Origin: an uncultured Cellulophaga sp.
Lineage (GTDB): Bacteria > Bacteroidota > Bacteroidia > Flavobacteriales > Flavobacteriaceae
Direction of reading: 5' to 3'
NCBI GenBank assembly: GCA_947491225.1
Contig: CANLIE010000004.1
Span: 1 to 64,000 of the forward strand
DNA: 64,000 bases
This document shows, one piece after another, positions 55,792 through 63,524 of this stretch (its first letter is position 1; the number at the start of each line of letters is the position of its first letter). A program made the position numbers and the translations under genes. The notes under the pieces are model-generated. The model was not told the origin of the DNA. It saw nothing but the letters and a program-made list of their open reading frames with translations, and ran no database searches.

Positions 55792-56055
55792 TTATTTACC
55801 CCACTTTATATTATTCCAAATACGTTCATGAAAAAAATACAATACCATTTTTGTAATTAATTCTATAAAACCTATAGAAAATGCCAATGTTAATGTCCCA
55901 GTTACTAACCAAGAAATTATAATTGTATCTATTGTACCTATAAACCTCCAACTAATAGACTTTAAAATACTTCTTTTAGGGCTCTCTGAGCGCTTGTCTG
56001 AAGTATAATTTCCCTTATTAGTTTCTTTGTTAAAAATCAATTGATCCGTAATCAT
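55792..56055 (-). CDS. DUF2061 membrane protein
   Basis: The 87-residue product carries the DUF2061 pattern RSILKSISWRFIGTIDTIIISWLVTG, followed by a second hydrophobic stretch and HERIWNNIKWG. The family is a small inner-membrane protein. In many bacteria it is encoded beside sulfate assimilation genes, as here. Its job is not established. It leads the DUF2061-cysH-cysD-cysN unit. Confidence 0.9.
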   Translation of the reverse strand: MITDQLIFNKETNKGNYTSDKRSESPKRSILKSISWRFIGTIDTIIISWLVTGTLTLAFSIGFIELITKMVLYFFHERIWNNIKWGK

Positions 56056-56071
56056 ATTACTTCAATAGTAT

Positions 56072-56104
56072 TACCCTATTTAATTAGTAGGATTTACAAA
56101 AGTA
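56072..56104 (-). promoter_or_regulatory. Promoter and sulfur-regulon operator, site 2
   Basis: On the minus strand a TACTTTTG -7 box (56097-56104) lies one base from the 24-bp operator at 56072-56095 (TACCCTAT-N8-TAGGATTT, forward). The transcription start would fall inside the operator, a repressor-like placement. Confidence 0.6.
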
Positions 56105-56139
56105 AAATTATTTTTGAGAATACATCTTAAAAAACATAT

Positions 56140-56163
56140 AAATCCTATAGTTTTAATAGATTA
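56140..56163. promoter_or_regulatory. Sulfur-regulon operator, site 3
   Basis: It reads AAATCCTATAG-N6-TAGATTA forward, the inverted form of sites 1 and 2, and lies about 45 bp upstream of site 2. Confidence 0.5.
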
Positions 56164-56250
56164 TTAAAAAAGCAGTTTTATTACTAATTATGAAATTGGG
56201 TAAGAAATATTATTTATCAGGAGTCTACAGGGAAAAGAGAAATCCCCTTA

Positions 56251-56658
56251 TTACAATAAATCTGCCAATGTATTGCTACTGTAGATTTCCAAGGCACTAT
56301 CCCTAACCTTTAGCATTAATTTATGTACAGAACATGACACCTCATCTGGGCAATCATCACATTTTTCATAAAAATTAAGACTTACACAAGGCACCATAGC
56401 AATTGGTCCTTCTAATGCTCTTATCACATCTGTCATTAAAATTTTAGATGGTTCTTTTATTAAGTAATAGCCTCCACCTTTACCTTTCTTAGAAGACAAA
56501 ACTCCTGTTCTTCTGAGTGTTAGCAAAATACTTTCCAAAAATTTTTGCGAAATATTATTTTGTTGGGCAACTTCACCAATAGGAATTGGATTCCTATCTT
56601 CTTTTTGTGCTAAGTATGTTAAAGCCTTAAGCCCGTATTTGGTTTTTTTGGATAGCAT
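56251..56658 (-). CDS. Rrf2-family transcriptional regulator
   Basis: The 135-residue product has the Rrf2 winged helix (MLSKKTKYGLKALTYLA, the recognition helix region ISQKFLESILLTLRRTGVL and the wing GKGGGYYL). The C-terminal half has four Cys (C91, C100, C103, C109), similar in number to the cluster- or signal-binding Cys of IscR-like proteins. Rrf2 members such as CymR control sulfur and cysteine metabolism, and this gene adjoins the sulfate assimilation genes. I infer it as their regulator. I start at ATG 56658; the longer frame adds residues upstream of a TATCTTTG promoter box. Confidence 0.9.
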   Translation of the reverse strand: MLSKKTKYGLKALTYLAQKEDRNPIPIGEVAQQNNISQKFLESILLTLRRTGVLSSKKGKGGGYYLIKEPSKILMTDVIRALEGPIAMVPCVSLNFYEKCDDCPDEVSCSVHKLMLKVRDSALEIYSSNTLADLL

Positions 56659-56662
56659 AGTA

Positions 56663-56670
56663 CAAAGATA
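56663..56670 (-). promoter_or_regulatory. -7 promoter box of the Rrf2 gene
   Basis: TATCTTTG on the minus strand ends only 4 bp before the ATG, so the transcript would be leaderless or nearly so. Confidence 0.5.
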
Positions 56671-56723
56671 GGCAAAATTGGAATTTAAAAAACAACAATT
56701 CAAACTAGCAAAAAACACACCAT

Positions 56724-56747
56724 AAACTTACAAATATTTGTAAGTTT
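56724..56747. promoter_or_regulatory. Perfect 24-bp palindrome
   Basis: The half site AAACTTACAAAT is followed directly by its exact complement. The same palindrome occurs at 58959-58982 in copy C. It lies 66 bp upstream of the Rrf2 gene and 106 bp before the core promoter of precursor A, so a regulator could act on either. Confidence 0.65.
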
Positions 56748-56852
56748 AAAATTTAAAACAACTATTCTATTTAAAAAAAAGTAAGAAAAAACTTTGTAGT
56801 ATTAAAAAAAAAAAAAACATCTTTACTGCATCAAAATATTCGCGAAACCATT

Positions 56853-56892
56853 TTGAAAAAATTATTGTATAACTTGGTTTGCAAATTGCAAA
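56853..56892 (+). promoter_or_regulatory. Precursor A promoter with 15-bp palindrome
   Basis: TTG (56853-56855), 18 bp and TTGGTTTG (56874-56881) fit the Bacteroidota promoter with one mismatch. TTTGCAAATTGCAAA (56878-56892), a 7-1-7 palindrome, overlaps the -7 box and the expected transcription start. An operator there would block initiation. Confidence 0.65.
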
Positions 56893-56909
56893 CTGTTAAA
56901 TTTAAAATT

Positions 56910-57143
56910 ATGAATTTAGAAAATTTAGGAGTTGAGGAAATGAACAAAAAAGAAATTATTTGTGCAAATGGAGGAGGAGATATATTTGATGGTGTGACTT
57001 GGTGGGAAGCCAGTGGTCAAAATCCAGTAGTTGGAGTAGCAAATGCAGCATACAATGCAGGAGTAATAGCTGGAAATATTATGGATGAAGCTATGTCGAC
57101 TGGTGTTTCGATGGCAGCAAAGGTTTATTCCTGGTTCGCATAA
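56910..57143 (+). CDS. Double-glycine precursor peptide A (77 aa)
   Basis: The leader is MNLENLGVEEMNKKEIICAN followed by Gly21-Gly22. Counting back from Gly22 as -1 it has Met-12, Asn-11, Glu-8, Ile-7, Ala-4 and Gly-2, the positions of the classical double-glycine leader processed by C39 peptidase exporters. The mature peptide (55 aa from Gly23) is anionic to neutral. It has a Trp pair (TWWE) and a Gly/Ala-rich middle with GVIAG, a GxxxG-type helix contact seen in two-peptide bacteriocins. Upstream TTG codons in frame are not credible: copies B and C have a one-base insertion that breaks that frame. Confidence 0.85.
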   Translation: MNLENLGVEEMNKKEIICANGGGDIFDGVTWWEASGQNPVVGVANAAYNAGVIAGNIMDEAMSTGVSMAAKVYSWFA

Positions 57144-57157
57144 TAAAAAACAATTAT

Positions 57158-57195
57158 AAATTGCAAAGGGTAGTTATACTCCCCTTTGCAATTTT
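57158..57195 (+). terminator. Terminator after precursor A
   Basis: A 13-bp perfect stem (AAATTGCAAAGGG / CCCTTTGCAATTT) with an 11-nt loop is followed by a short T run. Confidence 0.75.
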
Positions 57196-57213
57196 AATGT
57201 TTAAACAAACTTA

Positions 57214-57996
57214 ATGAAGAACAAATTTTTCCCTAATACAATTTTACAATCTATACTAGTTCTTTTAATTGTAATAATTTATTCAGCCATAGCAGTTTCC
57301 ATACTAAAGAAGTTTATTCCAGATATAGGATTAAAAATTACTCTTACATTTGTTTTTTGTATGCTAATGACAATTCTAACTCTTTACATAATAAATATTA
57401 AGAGAAATATAGTATTTGATTACAAAATCAAAAAAATTAACTTCAGCACATCAATATTATCTATTTTTACTTTAATCTTTTTTTCCTTTTCTTTTAACAC
57501 ACCTTTAAATAGACTTATTTATGAATTAGGCTTAAACGATGTATCTAATCCAGAAAATCCATTTAATTCTTTTCTATTTGTTTTATCTACGGTTATTTTG
57601 GCTCCCATTTTGGAAGAAATTATTTTTAGAAGGTTTATTATGGGAGGTCTTTTAACAAATTATTCTGTTAAAAAATCTATAATTGTGTCTACAATTCTTT
57701 TTTCTTTAATTCATATATCTCCACCGCAAATTATAGGAGCTATTTTTTATGGAGCATATTTTGGATTTATTTACTACAAAACTAAAAGTATAATTTTACC
57801 TATATTATTACACTTTACAGCTAATATATCAGGACTAGCTGGAGTTTATTTAAATTATAAATATGGACAAGTACCTATCCAACGAATAAGTGATATTTAT
57901 GGATCATACTCTGTCTACATAATTTTAACTTCGTTAACGTTTTTCTTTCTTTTAACCTATCTACTTAAAAAAAATATAAGAGAGAATTACGAATGA
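57214..57996 (+). CDS. CPBP-family intramembrane metalloprotease
   Basis: The 260-residue protein has about seven or eight membrane segments and the three CPBP (Abi/CAAX) motifs: EEIIFRRF (EExxxR), FSLIH and HFTAN (HxxxN). CPBP proteins beside bacteriocin genes often act in immunity or in processing and export; others are regulated proteases. It has no obvious promoter and may be read from the precursor A promoter past a leaky terminator. Its stop codon is followed directly by module copy B. Confidence 0.85.
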   Translation: MKNKFFPNTILQSILVLLIVIIYSAIAVSILKKFIPDIGLKITLTFVFCMLMTILTLYIINIKRNIVFDYKIKKINFSTSILSIFTLIFFSFSFNTPLNRLIYELGLNDVSNPENPFNSFLFVLSTVILAPILEEIIFRRFIMGGLLTNYSVKKSIIVSTILFSLIHISPPQIIGAIFYGAYFGFIYYKTKSIILPILLHFTANISGLAGVYLNYKYGQVPIQRISDIYGSYSVYIILTSLTFFFLLTYLLKKNIRENYE

Positions 57997-58110
57997 AAAA
58001 TATTCGCGAAACCATTTTGAAAAAATTATTGTATAACTTGGTTTGCAAATTGCAAACTGTTAAATTTAAAAATTATGAATTTAGAAAATTTAGGAGTTCA
58101 GGAAATGAAC
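57997..58110. repeat. Promoter-leader module, copy B (short form)
   Basis: The 114 bp from AAAATATTCGCG to GAAATGAAC match copies A and C almost base for base. It holds only the core promoter, the palindrome, the 5'UTR and the first 12 leader codons. It begins at the first base after the CPBP stop codon. Confidence 0.9.
58017..58056 (+). promoter_or_regulatory. Precursor B promoter with 15-bp palindrome
   Basis: TTG (58017-58019)-N18-TTGGTTTG (58038-58045) and the palindrome TTTGCAAATTGCAAA (58042-58056) are identical to copies A and C. Confidence 0.65.
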
Positions 58111-58257
58111 TTAACAGAGGCTAAAGAAATAGATGGAGGTATAATCCCACTACTTGCATTAGCTGTACAGGTTGCGTGTTATTCAGCAGCTGGAGATATT
58201 ATGTTGAATTTTAGTTCTTATGCAAATGCATTAGATGAGAAAATGAATAATTGTTAA
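58075..58257 (+). CDS. Double-glycine precursor peptide B (60 aa)
   Basis: The leader starts MNLENLGVQEMN like A but ends LTEAKEIDGG, with Met-12, Asn-11, Glu-8, Ala-7, Ile-4 and Gly-2/-1. Only its first half is part of the shared module. The mature peptide has 38 residues (from Ile23): a hydrophobic segment IIPLLALAVQVACYSAAG, then a polar tail ending in Cys. Two Cys residues could form a disulfide. There is no modification enzyme nearby. Confidence 0.82.
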   Translation: MNLENLGVQEMNLTEAKEIDGGIIPLLALAVQVACYSAAGDIMLNFSSYANALDEKMNNC

Positions 58258-58281
58258 ATTAAAAAAATACTATTATATCAT

Positions 58282-58497
58282 ATGAAAAATTTACAACTTT
58301 ATAATGTTATAGAATTAAATAATGAAGATATTACAAAAGTTCAAGCAGGAGACCTATCAGATTTTGGGGAATGGCTAACTGATACAATGGCCTCAGGTTT
58401 TTGTAGAGTTAAAACTTGGTGGAGAAATACACCTAAGGGTTATATTCCTGGTAACAACACTGGATATGATGGTAATGCTATGGGATTACCTGGGTAA
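58282..58497 (+). CDS. Double-glycine-type (Ala-Gly) precursor peptide C (71 aa)
   Basis: The leader reads MKNLQLYNVIELNNEDITKV then Gln-Ala-Gly. From Gly23 as -1 it has Leu-12, Asn-11, Asp-8, Ile-7, Val-4 and Ala-2, the double-glycine register with AG replacing GG. The 48-residue mature part (DLSDFGEWLTDTMASGFC...) is Trp-rich and ends in a Gly/Asn-rich tail (GNNTGYDGNAMGLPG). It shares the B promoter, 24 bp downstream, so B and C could be the two halves of one activity. Confidence 0.78.
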   Translation: MKNLQLYNVIELNNEDITKVQAGDLSDFGEWLTDTMASGFCRVKTWWRNTPKGYIPGNNTGYDGNAMGLPG

Positions 58498-58515
58498 AAA
58501 TCAAAAAAATAAAAT

Positions 58516-58554
58516 GACATGCTTAAAAGTGTTTTTTTTTAAGTGTGTCTTTTA
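58516..58554 (+). terminator. Terminator after precursor C
   Basis: A 12-bp stem with two G-U pairs (GACATGCTTAAA / TTTAAGTGTGTC) is followed by TTTTATATT. Confidence 0.65.
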
Positions 58555-58569
58555 TATTAAGCATTTTAT

Positions 58570-58923
58570 ATGAAAAAATATTTAGTTTTTTTTATAGTCA
58601 CTTTATTAATATTTCTCTTTTTTAGATTACCCTACAGAAATTATATTTACTCTAATGATATTTTTGACTTTTTTATAGCAGATACGGCTCCTAATTTTTT
58701 AACTATTTATTTATTTGTTTTTCTCAAAAAAAGTCAAAAAATAAAATACAATAATTTAGTCTTGATTATTTTTTCTTTTTTAGGTTTAGTCATTTATGAG
58801 TTGTTTATTCAGGTTCATATTTATAAAGGAGCCAGAATAGATTTACTTGATATACTGGCATCTCTAATAGCATCGATTAGTGTTTACTTTATATGTGAAA
58901 AGATTGATGAAATTGGAATTTAA
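58570..58923 (+). CDS. VanZ-like small membrane protein
   Basis: The 117-residue product has about four membrane segments, with a polar segment QVHIYKGARIDLLDILASLIAS reminiscent of VanZ-like proteins. Its last codons (EIGI and stop) coincide with the first bases of repeat copy C, so its C-terminus may have been set by the duplication. Small multi-pass membrane proteins beside bacteriocin genes are frequent immunity candidates. That role is inference from position only. Confidence 0.65.
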   Translation: MKKYLVFFIVTLLIFLFFRLPYRNYIYSNDIFDFFIADTAPNFLTIYLFVFLKKSQKIKYNNLVLIIFSFLGLVIYELFIQVHIYKGARIDLLDILASLIASISVYFICEKIDEIGI

Positions 58924-58958
58924 AAAACAACTATTCAAACTAGCAAAAAACACACCAT

Positions 58959-58982
58959 AAACTTACAAATATTTGTAAGTTT
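58959..58982. promoter_or_regulatory. Perfect 24-bp palindrome, second copy
   Basis: Identical to 56724-56747 (half site AAACTTACAAAT), here 102 bp upstream of the precursor D core promoter. Confidence 0.65.
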
Positions 58983-59083
58983 AAAATTTAAAACAACTAT
59001 TCTATTTAAAAAAAAGTAAGAAAAAACTTTGCAGTATTAAAAAAAAAACATCTTTACTGCATCAAAATATTCGCGAAACCATT

Positions 59084-59123
59084 TTGAAAAAATTATTGTA
59101 TAACTTGGTTTGCAAATTGCAAA
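59084..59123 (+). promoter_or_regulatory. Precursor D promoter with 15-bp palindrome
   Basis: TTG (59084-59086)-N18-TTGGTTTG (59105-59112) overlaps the palindrome at 59109-59123, as in copies A and B. Confidence 0.65.
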
Positions 59124-59141
59124 CTGTTAAATTTAAAAATT

Positions 59142-59300
59142 ATGAATTTAGAAAATTTAGGAGTTCAGGAAATGAACAAAAAAGAAATTATTTGTGCAAA
59201 TGGAGGAGGTATTATACCCGGAGCTATTGCTATGTTTTTTTTTGCAAGAAGAGTTGAGTATGTAAAAAATGGTGGTGGATGGTTTGATTACTATATGTAA
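59142..59300 (+). CDS. Double-glycine precursor peptide D (52 aa)
   Basis: This frame is 52 codons plus stop. The leader differs from A by one residue (Gln9 for Glu9): MNLENLGVQEMNKKEIICAN then Gly-Gly. The mature peptide (30 aa) starts GIIPGAIAMFFFARR and ends GGGWFDYYM. Its IIP start resembles precursor B, and GIIPG is another GxxxG-type element. Because the whole leader is shared with A, the two differ only in their exported part, as if a cassette had been swapped behind a common leader. Confidence 0.82.
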   Translation: MNLENLGVQEMNKKEIICANGGGIIPGAIAMFFFARRVEYVKNGGGWFDYYM

Positions 59301-59333
59301 TTTTATTAACTTATTAAATATTATAAAATAATT

Positions 59334-59498
59334 ATGGAAAATCTAAATGAATTAAATTTAAAAGAATTATCTCAAAAAGAATTATGCAATTGTAGTGGTG
59401 GTTTTTGGGGAATTATAGCTTTGGCTGTAACATCGCTCTCTTTTGCTTACACACTAGGAAAAGATTCATATGCGATACACCCAGAAAGTTTTGTTTAA
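59334..59498 (+). CDS. Double-glycine precursor peptide E (54 aa)
   Basis: The leader MENLNELNLKELSQKELCNC then Ser-Gly-Gly is a textbook double-glycine leader: Leu-12, Ser-11, Glu-8, Leu-7, Cys-4, Gly-2, Gly-1. It is unrelated in sequence to the shared A/B/D leader. The mature peptide is 31 residues: a hydrophobic stretch FWGIIALAVTSLSFAYTLG and the polar tail KDSYAIHPESFV. It follows D by 33 bp under the same promoter and precedes a leaderless paralogue. Confidence 0.85.
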   Translation: MENLNELNLKELSQKELCNCSGGFWGIIALAVTSLSFAYTLGKDSYAIHPESFV

Positions 59499-59515
59499 AT
59501 ATAATATTATCAATT

Positions 59516-59650
59516 ATGAAAAATGAACTTGGAGATCAAAAGATTGTTAACAATATATTCTGGGTTTTAACAGTTACTTTATTAATATTCTACTTGTTCT
59601 ATACATTTGGAAAAGATTCATATGTAATTCATCCAGAAAGTTTTTTATAA
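59516..59650 (+). CDS. Leaderless twin of precursor E (44 aa)
   Basis: The product is MKNELGDQKIVNNIF then a hydrophobic stretch and GKDSYVIHPESFL. The last 14 residues match precursor E at all but three positions (YTFGKDSYVIHPES-type tail), and the FW that opens mature E is conserved. In place of the double-glycine leader it has a charged N-terminus, so it should stay as a one-pass membrane peptide. I infer an immunity protein mimicking its cognate peptide, or a partner subunit. Its ATG lies 17 bp after the E stop. Confidence 0.75.
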   Translation: MKNELGDQKIVNNIFWVLTVTLLIFYLFYTFGKDSYVIHPESFL

Positions 59651-59712
59651 AGTAAAGAATAACTTTATCACTTATTGTAATCTTGAATAAATGCTAAAAT
59701 TATTATTAAATT

Positions 59713-59747
59713 ACAATCACTAAATACTATCATTTAGTGATTGTTTT
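59713..59747 (+). terminator. Terminator after the D-E-F unit
   Basis: A 13-bp perfect stem (ACAATCACTAAAT / ATTTAGTGATTGT) with a 6-nt loop and a following T run ends the third peptide transcript. Confidence 0.85.
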
Positions 59748-59837
59748 AATCAATTAAATTTACTTATGTTGCATTAACATTAGAGTTATTTTTAAACTTA
59801 ATAACACAATTACAACTTAATCTGATTATGATTTATT

Positions 59838-60059
59838 ATGGACAAAAAAATAAAAAAAGATATTATATACTTTGTAATATTTATTCATATCACTACTTTT
59901 TTATTTAGTTATTTTAGCTTAAAAAGTTTTAATGGTACAATTAACGAGACAATTTCTCAAAGTATTGCAATCATTATTGGTTCACTACTAGCAGCATATA
60001 TAGAGTATGTAAGAAGAAAAATTAAAAAAGACAGCGGTAAAGACCATAAAAATAGATAA
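59838..60059 (+). CDS. Small two-pass membrane protein (73 aa)
   Basis: I recognise no family. Two membrane segments (about 9-29 and 39-59) are joined by a short loop, with basic residues at both ends (MDKKIKKD and RRKIKKDSGKDHKNR). The size, topology and location between the peptide genes and their exporter fit an immunity protein, but nothing in the sequence proves it. It has its own space on both sides, after the terminator at 59713-59747. Confidence 0.6.
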   Translation: MDKKIKKDIIYFVIFIHITTFLFSYFSLKSFNGTINETISQSIAIIIGSLLAAYIEYVRRKIKKDSGKDHKNR

Positions 60060-60121
60060 TAAACTTATTGTTAATAAGTATTCATTGCTCAGCAACTTTA
60101 ACATTCTAAACATAAGTAAAA

Positions 60122-60179
60122 ATAAAGAGTTTTTATGAAAATTAAGTATTGTATTACATACTAAAAACACTCTTTATAT
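60122..60179. other. Imperfect stem-loop before the exporter genes
   Basis: ATAAAGAG-TTTTTA (60122-60135) and TAAAAA-CA-CTCTTTAT (near 60161-60177) can pair over a long loop. It may act as a weak terminator for the 73-codon gene or as part of the exporter operon's leader. Confidence 0.35.
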
Positions 60180-60186
60180 TCAAAAT

Positions 60187-61326
60187 ATGAATATTAGCTC
60201 CAACCCCATTCACACCACAGAAAACCTTATTGCAAAAAACACCACCAAGAGTATCTCTATATATGTATTAGTTGTTCTAGTTCTTATTGGTTTTATAATA
60301 AGTCTACCAATTATTAAAATAGATATAAGTAGTCAAAGTCGTGGTATAGTACGCGGGTTGCAAGAAAACATACAGCTTAACACAGTAGTTAGCGGTAAAA
60401 TAATACGTAGCAACCTAAAAAACAACCAAATTGTAACTATTGGAGATACTTTACTAATTATAAACAAAGAAAATCTATACTCACAACAAAAATTAAATGA
60501 TACGCTCTACACTACAAATACATTATATTTAGAAGACATAACTAAATTATTAAAAGGCAAACAAACTAATTTTAAAACAACACTAGGGCAAGAAACCCAC
60601 AATACATTTGTTGTACAATTACAAGAATTACAGCAACGCATTACGCAAACAGAAACCAACTACAACCGTTATAAAAAATTATATAACAAAGCTGTTATTG
60701 CAAAAACAGAAATGGAAACTCATACCAATGAACTTACCAGTGCACAGCAAGCAAAACGTTCTTTTATAAAGCAACAGTATTCTAAATGGGAAACTGAAAA
60801 AAGAGAGCTAAAAGAGCGTATTAAAAACATAGAAAGCACATTAAACAACCTAGATAATGAAGCAGAAAAATATGTTTTAATCGCACCAATAACTGGCACT
60901 TTAGAAAATGTTTTGGGTTTACAAACTGGTTCTTTTGTTAATGCTACACAAACATTAGCCACCATATCTCCCAACGCTAATTTAATCGTAGAAAACACGG
61001 TTAGTCCTAATGATATTGGCTTGTTAAAAATAGGACAAAAAGTGCAGTTCCAATTAGATGCCTTTAACTACAACCAATGGGGTATGGTTTCTGGTAAAGT
61101 ACTAGATATAGACAAAAATATTACAGTGCAGAACAATATGAGTTTTTTTAAAGTACGTTGTAGTTTAGATACTAAACAAATAGGTCTAAAAAATGGGTAC
61201 ACTACTAACATTTCTAAAGGGATGACTTTAACCACACGCTATTTTATAACACAGCGTAGTCTATTTGATTTACTATTTGACAAAGTGGATGATTGGTTTA
61301 ACCCAAAAATAATTGCCCCAAATTAA
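60187..61326 (+). CDS. HlyD-family membrane-fusion protein
   Basis: HlyD proteins link an inner-membrane ABC exporter to an outer-membrane channel. One N-terminal membrane segment (about 25-46) is followed by a split lipoyl/barrel-sandwich domain (RGIVRGLQENIQLNTVVSGKI and the later YVLIAPITGTLENV). Between these lies a coiled-coil hairpin of about 130 residues. The C-terminal beta-barrel contains LIVENTVSPNDIGLLKIGQKV. At 379 residues it is standard. It is followed by the exporter gene after 47 bp. No TolC-like gene is in the window. Confidence 0.93.
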   Translation: MNISSNPIHTTENLIAKNTTKSISIYVLVVLVLIGFIISLPIIKIDISSQSRGIVRGLQENIQLNTVVSGKIIRSNLKNNQIVTIGDTLLIINKENLYSQQKLNDTLYTTNTLYLEDITKLLKGKQTNFKTTLGQETHNTFVVQLQELQQRITQTETNYNRYKKLYNKAVIAKTEMETHTNELTSAQQAKRSFIKQQYSKWETEKRELKERIKNIESTLNNLDNEAEKYVLIAPITGTLENVLGLQTGSFVNATQTLATISPNANLIVENTVSPNDIGLLKIGQKVQFQLDAFNYNQWGMVSGKVLDIDKNITVQNNMSFFKVRCSLDTKQIGLKNGYTTNISKGMTLTTRYFITQRSLFDLLFDKVDDWFNPKIIAPN

Positions 61327-61373: not shown

Positions 61374-63524
61374 ATGTCCTCTATTAAAATAAAACAACAC
61401 GACATTAAAGATTGTGGAGCTGCTTGCTTGGCAAGCATTGGCAACTACTATAATGTTAATTTACCTATAGCTCGCATACGACAGTATGCCAACACCGATA
61501 AAAGAGACACCAATGTTTTAGGCATTATAGAAGCTGCTGAAAAAATGGGTTTTACAGCAAAAGGAGTAAAAGGGGACATAGATGCCATACCTAAAATACC
61601 ATTGCCCGCCATTGCGCATATTGTAGTAAACAAACAACTACACCATTATGTGGTTATTTATAAAGTCTCTAAAAAAAATATAGAGGTTATGGATCCTGGA
61701 ACAGGAAAAATGACAACCTACACTTATGAAGAATTTCAAAAAATATGGACAGGTGTTTTAATTCTTTTTGCTAAAAATGATGAATTTAAAGCATACAATG
61801 ATAAAACAAGTGCCATTAAACGTTTTTGGGACTTAATACAACCTCATAAAACCATATTATTACAAGCATTATTTGGAGCTGTTATTTTTACGATACTGGG
61901 CTTGGCAATGTCTATATATGTACAAAAAATAACAGATTATGTATTGGTTGGTGGCAATAGAAAATTGTTAAATTTACTTAGTATAGGGATGATAGGAATT
62001 GTTCTCTTACAAATTTACATTGGTAGTAAAAAGAGTATTTTTGTATTAAAAACTGGGCAACTTATAGACGCCAAACTTATTTTAGGTTACTACAAACATT
62101 TATTGCGTTTGCCACAACGCTTTTTTGACACTATGCAAATTGGTGAAATAACCTCTAGAATTAGTGATGCCGTAAAAATAAGGGCTTTTATAAACAATGT
62201 TGCCATAGATATGCTCGTAAACATTTTTATTGTAATATTTTCTTTTAGTCTTATGTTTACGTACTATTGGAAACTGGCCTTGGTAATTTTATTGGTAATT
62301 CCTTTTTACTTGGGCATCTACTTTTTAATGAATTATTTTAATAAAAAAGTAGAACGTAAGTTAATGGAAGATGCTGCTGAATTGCAAACACAATTGGTAG
62401 AAAGTATTACACATATTAGAACAGTCAAGGAATTTGGCATAGAGGATTTTTCTAATATTAAAACTGAAAACAGATTTGTGAAATTATTGTTTACAACCTA
62501 TAAATCTGGTTTAAATGGTGTTTTTTCTGGAGTATCTACTCAATTTTTAGCTTCTATTTTTACCATTATTTTACTATGGATAGGCTCTGGTTATGTACTA
62601 GATGGAGAAATAACTACAGGAGAGCTATTTTCTTTTTACGCCCTTATAAGTTATTTTACGTCACCTGTTGCTTCTTTAATTGGAATGAACAAAACCATAC
62701 AAAATGCATTAATTGCAGCAGATAGGCTTTTTGAAATAATGGATCTAGAGCGTGAAGAAACAGAAAATAAAATTGAACTTAAAAAAGAATACTTGGGAGA
62801 TATTGTCTTTGAAAATGTATCTTTTAGATATGGTTCCAGAACCCAAGTTTTTGAAAATTTTAGCGCAACTCTTAAAAAAGGGCAAACAACAGCAATTGTA
62901 GGGGAAAGTGGTAGCGGAAAAACAACTTTAATAGCATTGCTTCAAAACTTATACCCAATAAAAGAAGGGAAAATTTACGTTGGCGATTATGATTTAAAAC
63001 ATATTCATTACAAAAGTCTTAGAAAATTAATTGGTGTTATTCCACAGCAATTAAACCTCTTTTCCGGTACAATTATAGAAAATATTGCATTAGGTCAAGA
63101 TTTCCCAGATATGCAACGTATCATAGAATTATCTAACAAATTAGGAATAACAACATTTGTAGAAAAATTACCTAACGGTTTTGAAACCCAAGCAGGAGAA
63201 AATGGCGCAATGCTTTCTGGAGGTCAAAAACAACGCATATCCATAGCAAGGGCATTATACAAAAACCCAGAAATATTATTAATGGATGAGGCGACTTCTG
63301 CTTTAGATTCACATTCTGAAACTATTGTAAAACAAGTCATAGATGAATTTAAAGCTCAAGGAAAAACAATTATAGTAATTGCTCATAGACTAAGTACCAT
63401 TGCAAATGCTGATGCTATTCTAGTTTTAAAAGATGGTGTAATTGTGGAACAAGGAAACCACAATCAATTACTTAAAAACAAGAAAGAATATTACAGTTTA
63501 TGGAATAAACAGAGTTTAGGATAG
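61374..63524 (+). CDS. Peptidase-containing ABC exporter (C39, PCAT type)
   Basis: This 716-residue protein cuts double-glycine leaders and exports the peptides. The C39 peptidase domain (1-~135) has the catalytic QHDIKDCGAAC with Cys14, a later catalytic His (LHHYVVI) and Asp (VMDPGTG). Six membrane segments follow (about 165-450). The ATPase domain has Walker A GESGSGKTT, signature LSGGQKQR and Walker B ILLMDEATSALD. It is encoded with a HlyD partner directly downstream of five double-glycine precursors, so I infer it processes them. Confidence 0.95.
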   Translation: MSSIKIKQHDIKDCGAACLASIGNYYNVNLPIARIRQYANTDKRDTNVLGIIEAAEKMGFTAKGVKGDIDAIPKIPLPAIAHIVVNKQLHHYVVIYKVSKKNIEVMDPGTGKMTTYTYEEFQKIWTGVLILFAKNDEFKAYNDKTSAIKRFWDLIQPHKTILLQALFGAVIFTILGLAMSIYVQKITDYVLVGGNRKLLNLLSIGMIGIVLLQIYIGSKKSIFVLKTGQLIDAKLILGYYKHLLRLPQRFFDTMQIGEITSRISDAVKIRAFINNVAIDMLVNIFIVIFSFSLMFTYYWKLALVILLVIPFYLGIYFLMNYFNKKVERKLMEDAAELQTQLVESITHIRTVKEFGIEDFSNIKTENRFVKLLFTTYKSGLNGVFSGVSTQFLASIFTIILLWIGSGYVLDGEITTGELFSFYALISYFTSPVASLIGMNKTIQNALIAADRLFEIMDLEREETENKIELKKEYLGDIVFENVSFRYGSRTQVFENFSATLKKGQTTAIVGESGSGKTTLIALLQNLYPIKEGKIYVGDYDLKHIHYKSLRKLIGVIPQQLNLFSGTIIENIALGQDFPDMQRIIELSNKLGITTFVEKLPNGFETQAGENGAMLSGGQKQRISIARALYKNPEILLMDEATSALDSHSETIVKQVIDEFKAQGKTIIVIAHRLSTIANADAILVLKDGVIVEQGNHNQLLKNKKEYYSLWNKQSLG

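Follow-up and report, generated by a model that had tools for sequence, protein, structure and literature searches.

How does one bacteriocin-type locus come to carry unrelated exported peptides behind nearly the same promoter and leader? The locus lies in an uncultured Cellulophaga sp. of the family Flavobacteriaceae, within a stretch of 64,000 nucleotides (nt) that we call the window (positions 1-64,000 of its 130-kb contig, CANLIE010000004.1, here C4, in draft assembly GCA_947491225.1 of 366 contigs). The original prediction, made from the sequence alone, held that three copies of a promoter-palindrome-leader module drive different exported peptides, so that a conserved regulatory and targeting piece receives swapped cargo. 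This species is represented by a single genome; we compared the copies with each other, with shuffled sequence and with 17 congeneric genomes. We favour, with a probability of roughly 0.75, a multi-unit locus of peptides with Gly-Gly (GG) leaders that has grown by copying of the module and its joining to foreign bacteriocin-immunity cassettes. The module copies are as follows.

56664-56977, plus strand: module copy A, long form, with a stub of the promoter of the Rrf2-family regulator gene (rrf2), a 26-nt palindrome, the promoter region and a 22-codon leader
57997-58110, plus strand: module copy B, short form, starting directly after the stop codon of the CPBP gene and stopping at leader codon 12
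58899-59209, plus strand: module copy C, long form, derived from A
C4:64273-64394: module copy D, decayed, 273 bp beyond the end of the window, found by whole-genome search

Copies B and C agree over 114 nt without a mismatch (57997-58110 = 59064-59177), the last of which closes leader codon 12, and A and B share 75 nt without a mismatch. The alignment of A with C occupies 315 columns (56664-56977 against 58899-59209), with seven substitutions and five gap columns, and ends 2 nt beyond the second Gly codon. It extends ~165 nt further upstream than B, and this extra part includes the second palindrome, of 26 nt. Among A, B and C, pairwise identity in the 75 nt before the ATG is 97-100%; the leaders of A and C are 98% identical, and the mosaic leader of B matches the others at 72-73%. 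At the leader or GG junction identity drops from 97-100% to background: the cargos are 42-49% identical to each other versus 42-50% to shuffled sequence, and the 150 nt 3' of the cargos, at 51-59% versus 52-53% for shuffled sequence, are at or near background. The near-identical copies, their end points at codon 12 or the GG codons and the unrelatedness of the exported parts were therefore all borne out; A, B and C are present as predicted, and the count of three has to be raised for D, just outside the window. D has lost 2 nt at the GG codons, has gained one base in the 17-nt palindrome of the module and retains the first ~14 codons of cargo A, so not all copies end at the leader. Past these codons D joins an unrelated open reading frame (ORF) of ~200 amino acids (aa; L009:797-1678 = C4:64196-65077), followed by two TPR proteins. 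The 2-nt deletion leaves the leader out of frame with this ORF, and a homologue search with the ORF returned weak matches only, riddled with stop codons.

The peptides behind the modules, and the genes that accompany them, are these.

56910-57143, plus strand: peptide A precursor, leader MNLENLGVEEMNKKEIICANGG (56910-56975) and a 55-aa cargo
57214-57996, plus strand: CPBP (Rce1-like) membrane protease (Pfam PF02517, 1.3e-21), candidate immunity protein of peptide A
58075-58257, plus strand: peptide B precursor, chimeric leader MNLENLGVQEMN/LTEAKEIDGG and a 38-aa cargo
58282-58497, plus strand: partner peptide B2, leader ending in ...TKVQAG
58570-58923, plus strand: 117-aa membrane protein, candidate immunity protein for B and B2, with a syntenic homologue in locus L093
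59142-59300, plus strand: peptide C precursor, leader MNLENLGVQEMNKKEIICANGG and a 30-aa cargo
59334-59498, plus strand: partner peptide C2, with its own GG leader
59516-59650, plus strand: 44-aa membrane ORF sharing its C-terminus with C2, a possible immunity peptide

Small peptides with GG (or AG) leaders thus occur singly (A) or in pairs (B with B2, C with C2), and the copied block of C supplies the final codons and stop of the 117-aa gene. Leaders of the type cut by ComA and other peptidase-containing ABC transporters (PCATs) end in GG and have hydrophobic residues at positions -4, -7, -12 and -15. In this order, the leaders of A and C carry A, I, M and V, and that of B carries I, A, M and V, so the hydrophobic spacing is present in all three; in B, the residues at -15 and -12 come from the module and those at -7 and -4 from the cargo side. 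Cargos A and C contain no cysteine and cargo B contains two. The shared C-termini of the 44-aa ORF and C2 read GKDSYVIHPESFL and GKDSYAIHPESFV, with 83% identity in DNA; judging from this likeness, the ORF could be an immunity peptide that mimics the bacteriocin, or a remnant.

Did the cargos arise in place, or did they come from elsewhere? We collected 80 loci through transporter homology, with one further locus (L122) added, and judged peptide comparisons by synteny and shuffle Z-scores because E-values are weak for such short peptides. Cargo A has a homologue in L122 (genome G320, another genus of Flavobacteriaceae; 48% identity, Z 11), where an orthologue of the CPBP protease lies directly 3' (45%, Z 33). 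There it stands behind leader MKKLPELQNDELLNINGG, with upstream DNA that bears no similarity to the module of the window. Cargo B has its homologue in L093, from Cyclobacteriaceae bacterium YHN15 (42%, Z 11), in the same gene order with B2 (29%, Z 5) and the 117-aa protein (47%, Z 22), behind leader MVSLKELTFDEKIRMDGG and an upstream region of a module type common to eight peptide genes in seven loci, mostly of Cyclobacteriaceae. Cargos A and B are far closer to these homologues in other genera than to each other. The segment LTEAKEIDGG is exactly the part of the B leader that the module does not provide, and its similarity to the leader of the YHN15 homologue is weak (Z 3); it probably derives from the former leader of cargo B. 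The other leaders borne by homologues of A and B, and the recurrence of the pattern in the loci described below, are two independent tests that both support a swapping of cargos, as the original prediction had proposed.

The direction of copying can be read from a fragment of a neighbouring gene.

56251-56661, minus strand: gene of the Rrf2-family regulator, next to copy A, with the promoter from which the stub in copy C derives

The opening 18 nt of the A/C block, counted from 56674, are DNA of the native rrf2 promoter: six close relatives (Rrf2 90-91% identical) have sequence like that of the block start, AAATTGG(A/G)ATTTAAAAAA, in the flank of their rrf2 promoter. Copy C bears this stub at the end of the 117-aa gene, so the A site was the source from which C was copied. 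A similar trace occurs in Flavobacterium, where primary modules come after a small helix-turn-helix (HTH) gene and include its coding end (FRPILLDGTLISLL, then the stop); in eight loci, nine secondary copies keep a short 3' stub of that gene. The stubs in the window and in Flavobacterium together identify the module as the copied unit in at least two lineages. They add movement of the module to the cassette diversification that had been predicted, which the synteny of cassettes A and B in other genera bears out.

An alternative that we regard as rather unlikely holds that the module stays put and serves as a landing pad, with foreign cassettes entering by homologous recombination with the resident module or leader and leaving via neighbouring direct repeats. 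Its appeal is that each cassette lies between direct-repeat modules (spaced 1.16 kb from A to B, 1.07 kb from B to C and 5.2 kb from C to D) and that the B leader is a mosaic at codon 12 whose tail weakly resembles the leader of the YHN15 homologue. However, rrf2-promoter DNA in C and HTH-gene stubs in Flavobacterium demand that the module moved, and no intermediate or excised form was seen.

Under module copying and cassette joining, each unit would combine a promoter-leader module with a candidate immunity gene and either a single cargo peptide or two. Starting from its primary position next to rrf2 (A), the module would have been copied to C and D, with B exchanged with C, and would have been joined to foreign cassettes via recombination within homologous leader sequence. 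A breakpoint inside the leader would preserve the reading frame and the hydrophobic positions used by such peptidases. Transcription from copies of one promoter would bring co-expression and shared regulation; the C39 domain of the resident transporter would bind and cut the leader, and a single HlyD/ABC machine would export any cargo placed in frame behind it. Killing by the cargos and protection by the candidate immunity proteins are predicted from the same gene content. Units might also be lost or exchanged through recombination between the direct-repeat modules, although no such event was observed.

The junction is not peculiar to this genome. Direct repeats that cover promoter and leader and end no more than ~22 nt from the GG codons are present in ten other loci among the 80 (L022, L023, L026, L031, L033, L035, L036, L050, L070 and L088), which are not all independent and of which L022 and L031 are weaker cases; as exceptions, the repeat extends further in L037 and L038. 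Algoriphagus L088 has two units in which copies of a shared module precede unrelated cargos; a Pedobacter locus (L073) encodes a homologue of one of the two under another leader. As far as gene arrangement can tell, this indicates that mixing and matching is a recurring way in which the phylum assembles arsenals of secreted toxins.

Several points count against this account. No homologue of cargo C was detected among the loci compared. Among the secondary copies in Flavobacterium, some share their position and could stem from a single ancestral event. The junction could be the product either of illegitimate joining or of exchange between homologous leader sequences. Lastly, the duplicated cargos of L015 and L016 are exceptions that can still be aligned, at 62-64% nt identity; on this evidence, divergence after ordinary duplication also occurs.

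The last point leads to a second alternative, plain tandem duplication of whole precursor genes with very fast cargo diversification and purifying selection on leader and promoter, which we consider improbable. In L015 and L016, cargo and downstream DNA (68-75%) do remain above background beside upstream and leader sequence at 87-100%, as such a history would leave them. In the window, by contrast, similarity is at or close to background in the cargos, their lengths, the partner genes and the DNA that follows, beside noncoding upstream DNA at 97-100%, and for A and B the foreign orthologues largely refute duplication. Cargos as similar as the leaders, which the original prediction had named as grounds for abandoning it, were not found between copies or between species, the cargos of L015 and L016 being diverged but alignable. 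Each of these two loci holds two copies (L015:7818-8504; L016:8360/12567) whose cargo identity is below that of both leader and downstream DNA; fast cargo evolution following duplication is possible there.

Are the peptides bacteriocins at all? The genes for their export follow the last unit.

60187-61326, plus strand: HlyD-family periplasmic adaptor of the exporter
61374-63524, plus strand: peptidase-containing ABC transporter (C39 and ABC domains), PCAT1-like (PF03412, 3.9e-38)

The transporter aligns over its full length to PCAT1 (4ry2; 3.6e-160), with the catalytic Cys (DCG), His and Asp motifs conserved. A two-peptide (class IIb) organisation is present in the window as B with B2 and C with C2, and pairs occur in most related loci. 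With TIGR03949 (lactobin A/cerein 7B family), B scores 17.6 bits and C2 17.0 bits, below the NCBIfam cut-off of 21.5; with the microcin V family PF17508, peptide A scores 15.1 bits, below the gathering cut-off of 27. By its architecture, the locus is a PCAT-dependent class II-type bacteriocin locus and not a proven member of the cerein 7B or microcin V families. That the peptides are instead signalling or competence-type GG peptides strikes us as very improbable: PCATs export pheromones as well (PMC7018657), but the peptides here are hydrophobic and paired, CPBP and small membrane proteins travel with the cargo, the class IIb and microcin V profiles show weak similarity, and no receptor gene was recognised beside the peptides. 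An assembly artefact, the other ground for doubt named with the original prediction, might be suspected from short repeats in a draft assembly and is scarcely credible given unique flanks on each side, copy-specific single-nucleotide polymorphisms or indels in most copies, a single 130-kb contig, synteny of cassettes A and B with other genomes and the same architecture in independent assemblies.

The pneumococcal blp locus is already known for recombination at the level of the leader and for bacteriocin-immunity genes that can be swapped (PMC4860687, PMC6422914). Like the locus studied here, blp of Streptococcus pneumoniae combines one PCAT exporter with several GG-leader class IIb peptides and immunity genes, including Abi/CPBP proteases; BlpR sites precede its bacteriocin operons, and recombination takes place in the leader or in the initial residues (PMC4860687, PMC6422914). 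Both place variable bacteriocin-immunity genes under shared regulatory sequence, a similarity in working and not homology. Unlike blp, the window locus belongs to a Gram-negative phylum, uses an HlyD adaptor and has near-identical module copies of ~114-300 bp with stubs of neighbouring genes; neither pheromone genes nor two-component genes were recognised there. The best described GG peptides of Bacteroidota, the bacteroidetocins, are likewise exported by a C39 ABC transporter; they have leaders of 15-16 aa and at least two cysteines (four in the two that were described first), and are accompanied by a transmembrane protein and, as a rule, a thiol oxidoreductase (PMC6671954). The window peptides differ from them in their 22-aa leaders, at most two cysteines per cargo (A, B, C) and no thiol oxidoreductase noted at the locus, and so fall outside that group. 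Microcin V (colicin V) is a Gram-negative precedent for a PCAT with a membrane-fusion protein exporting a GG-leader peptide (PMC10352776). It differs from the window locus, which has several cargos and whose peptide A is below the Pfam cut-off for microcin V. Prochlorosins join a conserved leader to diverse cores handled by one processing machine. The same holds for roseocins (PMC10027976). In contrast to such ribosomally synthesized and post-translationally modified peptides, the window locus has no modification enzyme noted beside its peptides, and here the promoter too belongs to the copied unit.

The open-access literature yielded no account of such module copying, or of this architecture, in Flavobacteriaceae (subscription papers were not searched). 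The locus offers sequence evidence, direction of copying included, for a route by which a Gram-negative phylum can renew its weapons, in which foreign toxin-immunity cassettes would come under a single exporter and a single module for expression and export. It also suggests a rule for finding new bacteriocins and immunity genes, which is to search for the module and read what comes after it, and raises the question whether producer types are newly made by leader recombination in natural populations. More tentatively, and at somewhat less than even odds, the GG-bacteriocin loci of Bacteroidota may be exchange platforms in general, in which a lineage-specific module, made up of promoter dyad and leader and carrying a stub of the gene next to the primary locus, is copied repeatedly and bacteriocin-immunity cassettes circulate between families under whichever module is local, with a dedicated regulator that in many lineages is probably the small HTH protein encoded directly upstream of the peptide genes.

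What might switch these promoters on? Three symmetric elements lie in the module.

56877-56893, 58041-58057 and 59108-59124: 17-nt palindrome GTTTGCAAATTGCAAAC, in copies A, B and C
56723-56748: perfect 26-nt palindrome TAAACTTACAAATATTTGTAAGTTTA, in copies A and C only
56831-56856, plus strand: dyad TCAAAAT-ATTCGCGAAACC-ATTTTGA, a candidate regulatory element, in A, C and D; in B the left end is missing

The palindrome of the original prediction is present in A, B and C as claimed; it proved specific to this genome, and it is a different dyad that resembles elements of other genera. Within the whole genome GTTTGCAAATTGCAAAC is confined to A, B and C, which rejects a genome-wide regulon, and it is absent from all 17 congeneric genomes searched. 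It travelled with the copied block, so its recurrence is not independent evidence of function. The 20-nt core of the 26-nt palindrome has two sites in the genome and none in the 17 congeners with up to two mismatches allowed; its absence upstream of rrf2 in those congeners rules it out as a native Rrf2 operator.

Dyads resembling TCAAAAT-ATTCGCGAAACC-ATTTTGA precede leaders in L015, L053, L054, L017 and Flavobacterium: the L015 element reads TCAAAATATTATCGAAATTATTTTGA, the Flavobacterium one AACAAAAT...TTCTCGAGAA...ATTTTGTT, and similar elements occur in Psychroflexus, Mesonia and Winogradskyella. The core of TTCTCGAGAA, TCTCGAGA, nested in CAAAAT...ATTTTG, occurs in the 140 nt before the start of 32 out of 152 GG-peptide genes, mostly at 51-60 nt before the ATG (for example in L019, L023, L026, L028, L033-L038 and other loci); 0.65 were expected, and related sequences inflate the observed count. 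From this placement, TCTCGAGA and the dyads are candidate operators of Flavobacteriaceae bacteriocin promoters. The strict Flavobacterium-type dyad (TTCTCGAGAA form) had no match in 219 Flavobacteriaceae genomes, nearly all of different genera.

A candidate dedicated regulator of GG-peptide genes is the HTH protein of ~106 aa with a conserved C-terminal FGG motif, encoded in 34 of the 80 loci and in L122, usually upstream of the GG-peptide genes (for example L019:6276-6593, L026:4917-5234 and L093:7261-7539). One member is HTH_11-like, and the Flavobacterium form matches no Pfam or NCBIfam family. A search for the protein in the genome of the window, which had no positive control, gave no match. 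No pheromone, histidine kinase or response regulator was recognised at 56.2-66 kb of the contig, the rest of the genome not having been scanned for regulators. Together with the HTH family, the candidate dyad gives a starting point for studying how bacteriocin expression is turned on in Bacteroidota.

RNA elements were also considered. Rfam gave no match at gathering score in seven related loci, and in the window (56000-60500) one chance-level match only, far under its gathering score. A Flavobacterium hairpin, TTCCGTCCAATTTTATTRGACGGAA, is largely explained away as an RNA element by its coding role in primary copies, where it specifies the HTH protein tail FRPILLDG; it is kept in noncoding copies and may still function there. 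A separate element, ATGCTAGCTA...GAGATTGGGA..CCCAACGCCCGGAAAAGGTTGGG, had no Rfam match in the five loci scanned (L087-L090 and L093). It is conserved ~150 nt before the ATGs of GG-peptide genes in L082, L083, L087, L088, L089, L090 and L093 and shows compensatory changes (CCCAAC/GTTGGG to CCCGAC/GTCGGG), a pattern that makes a new structured leader RNA possible.

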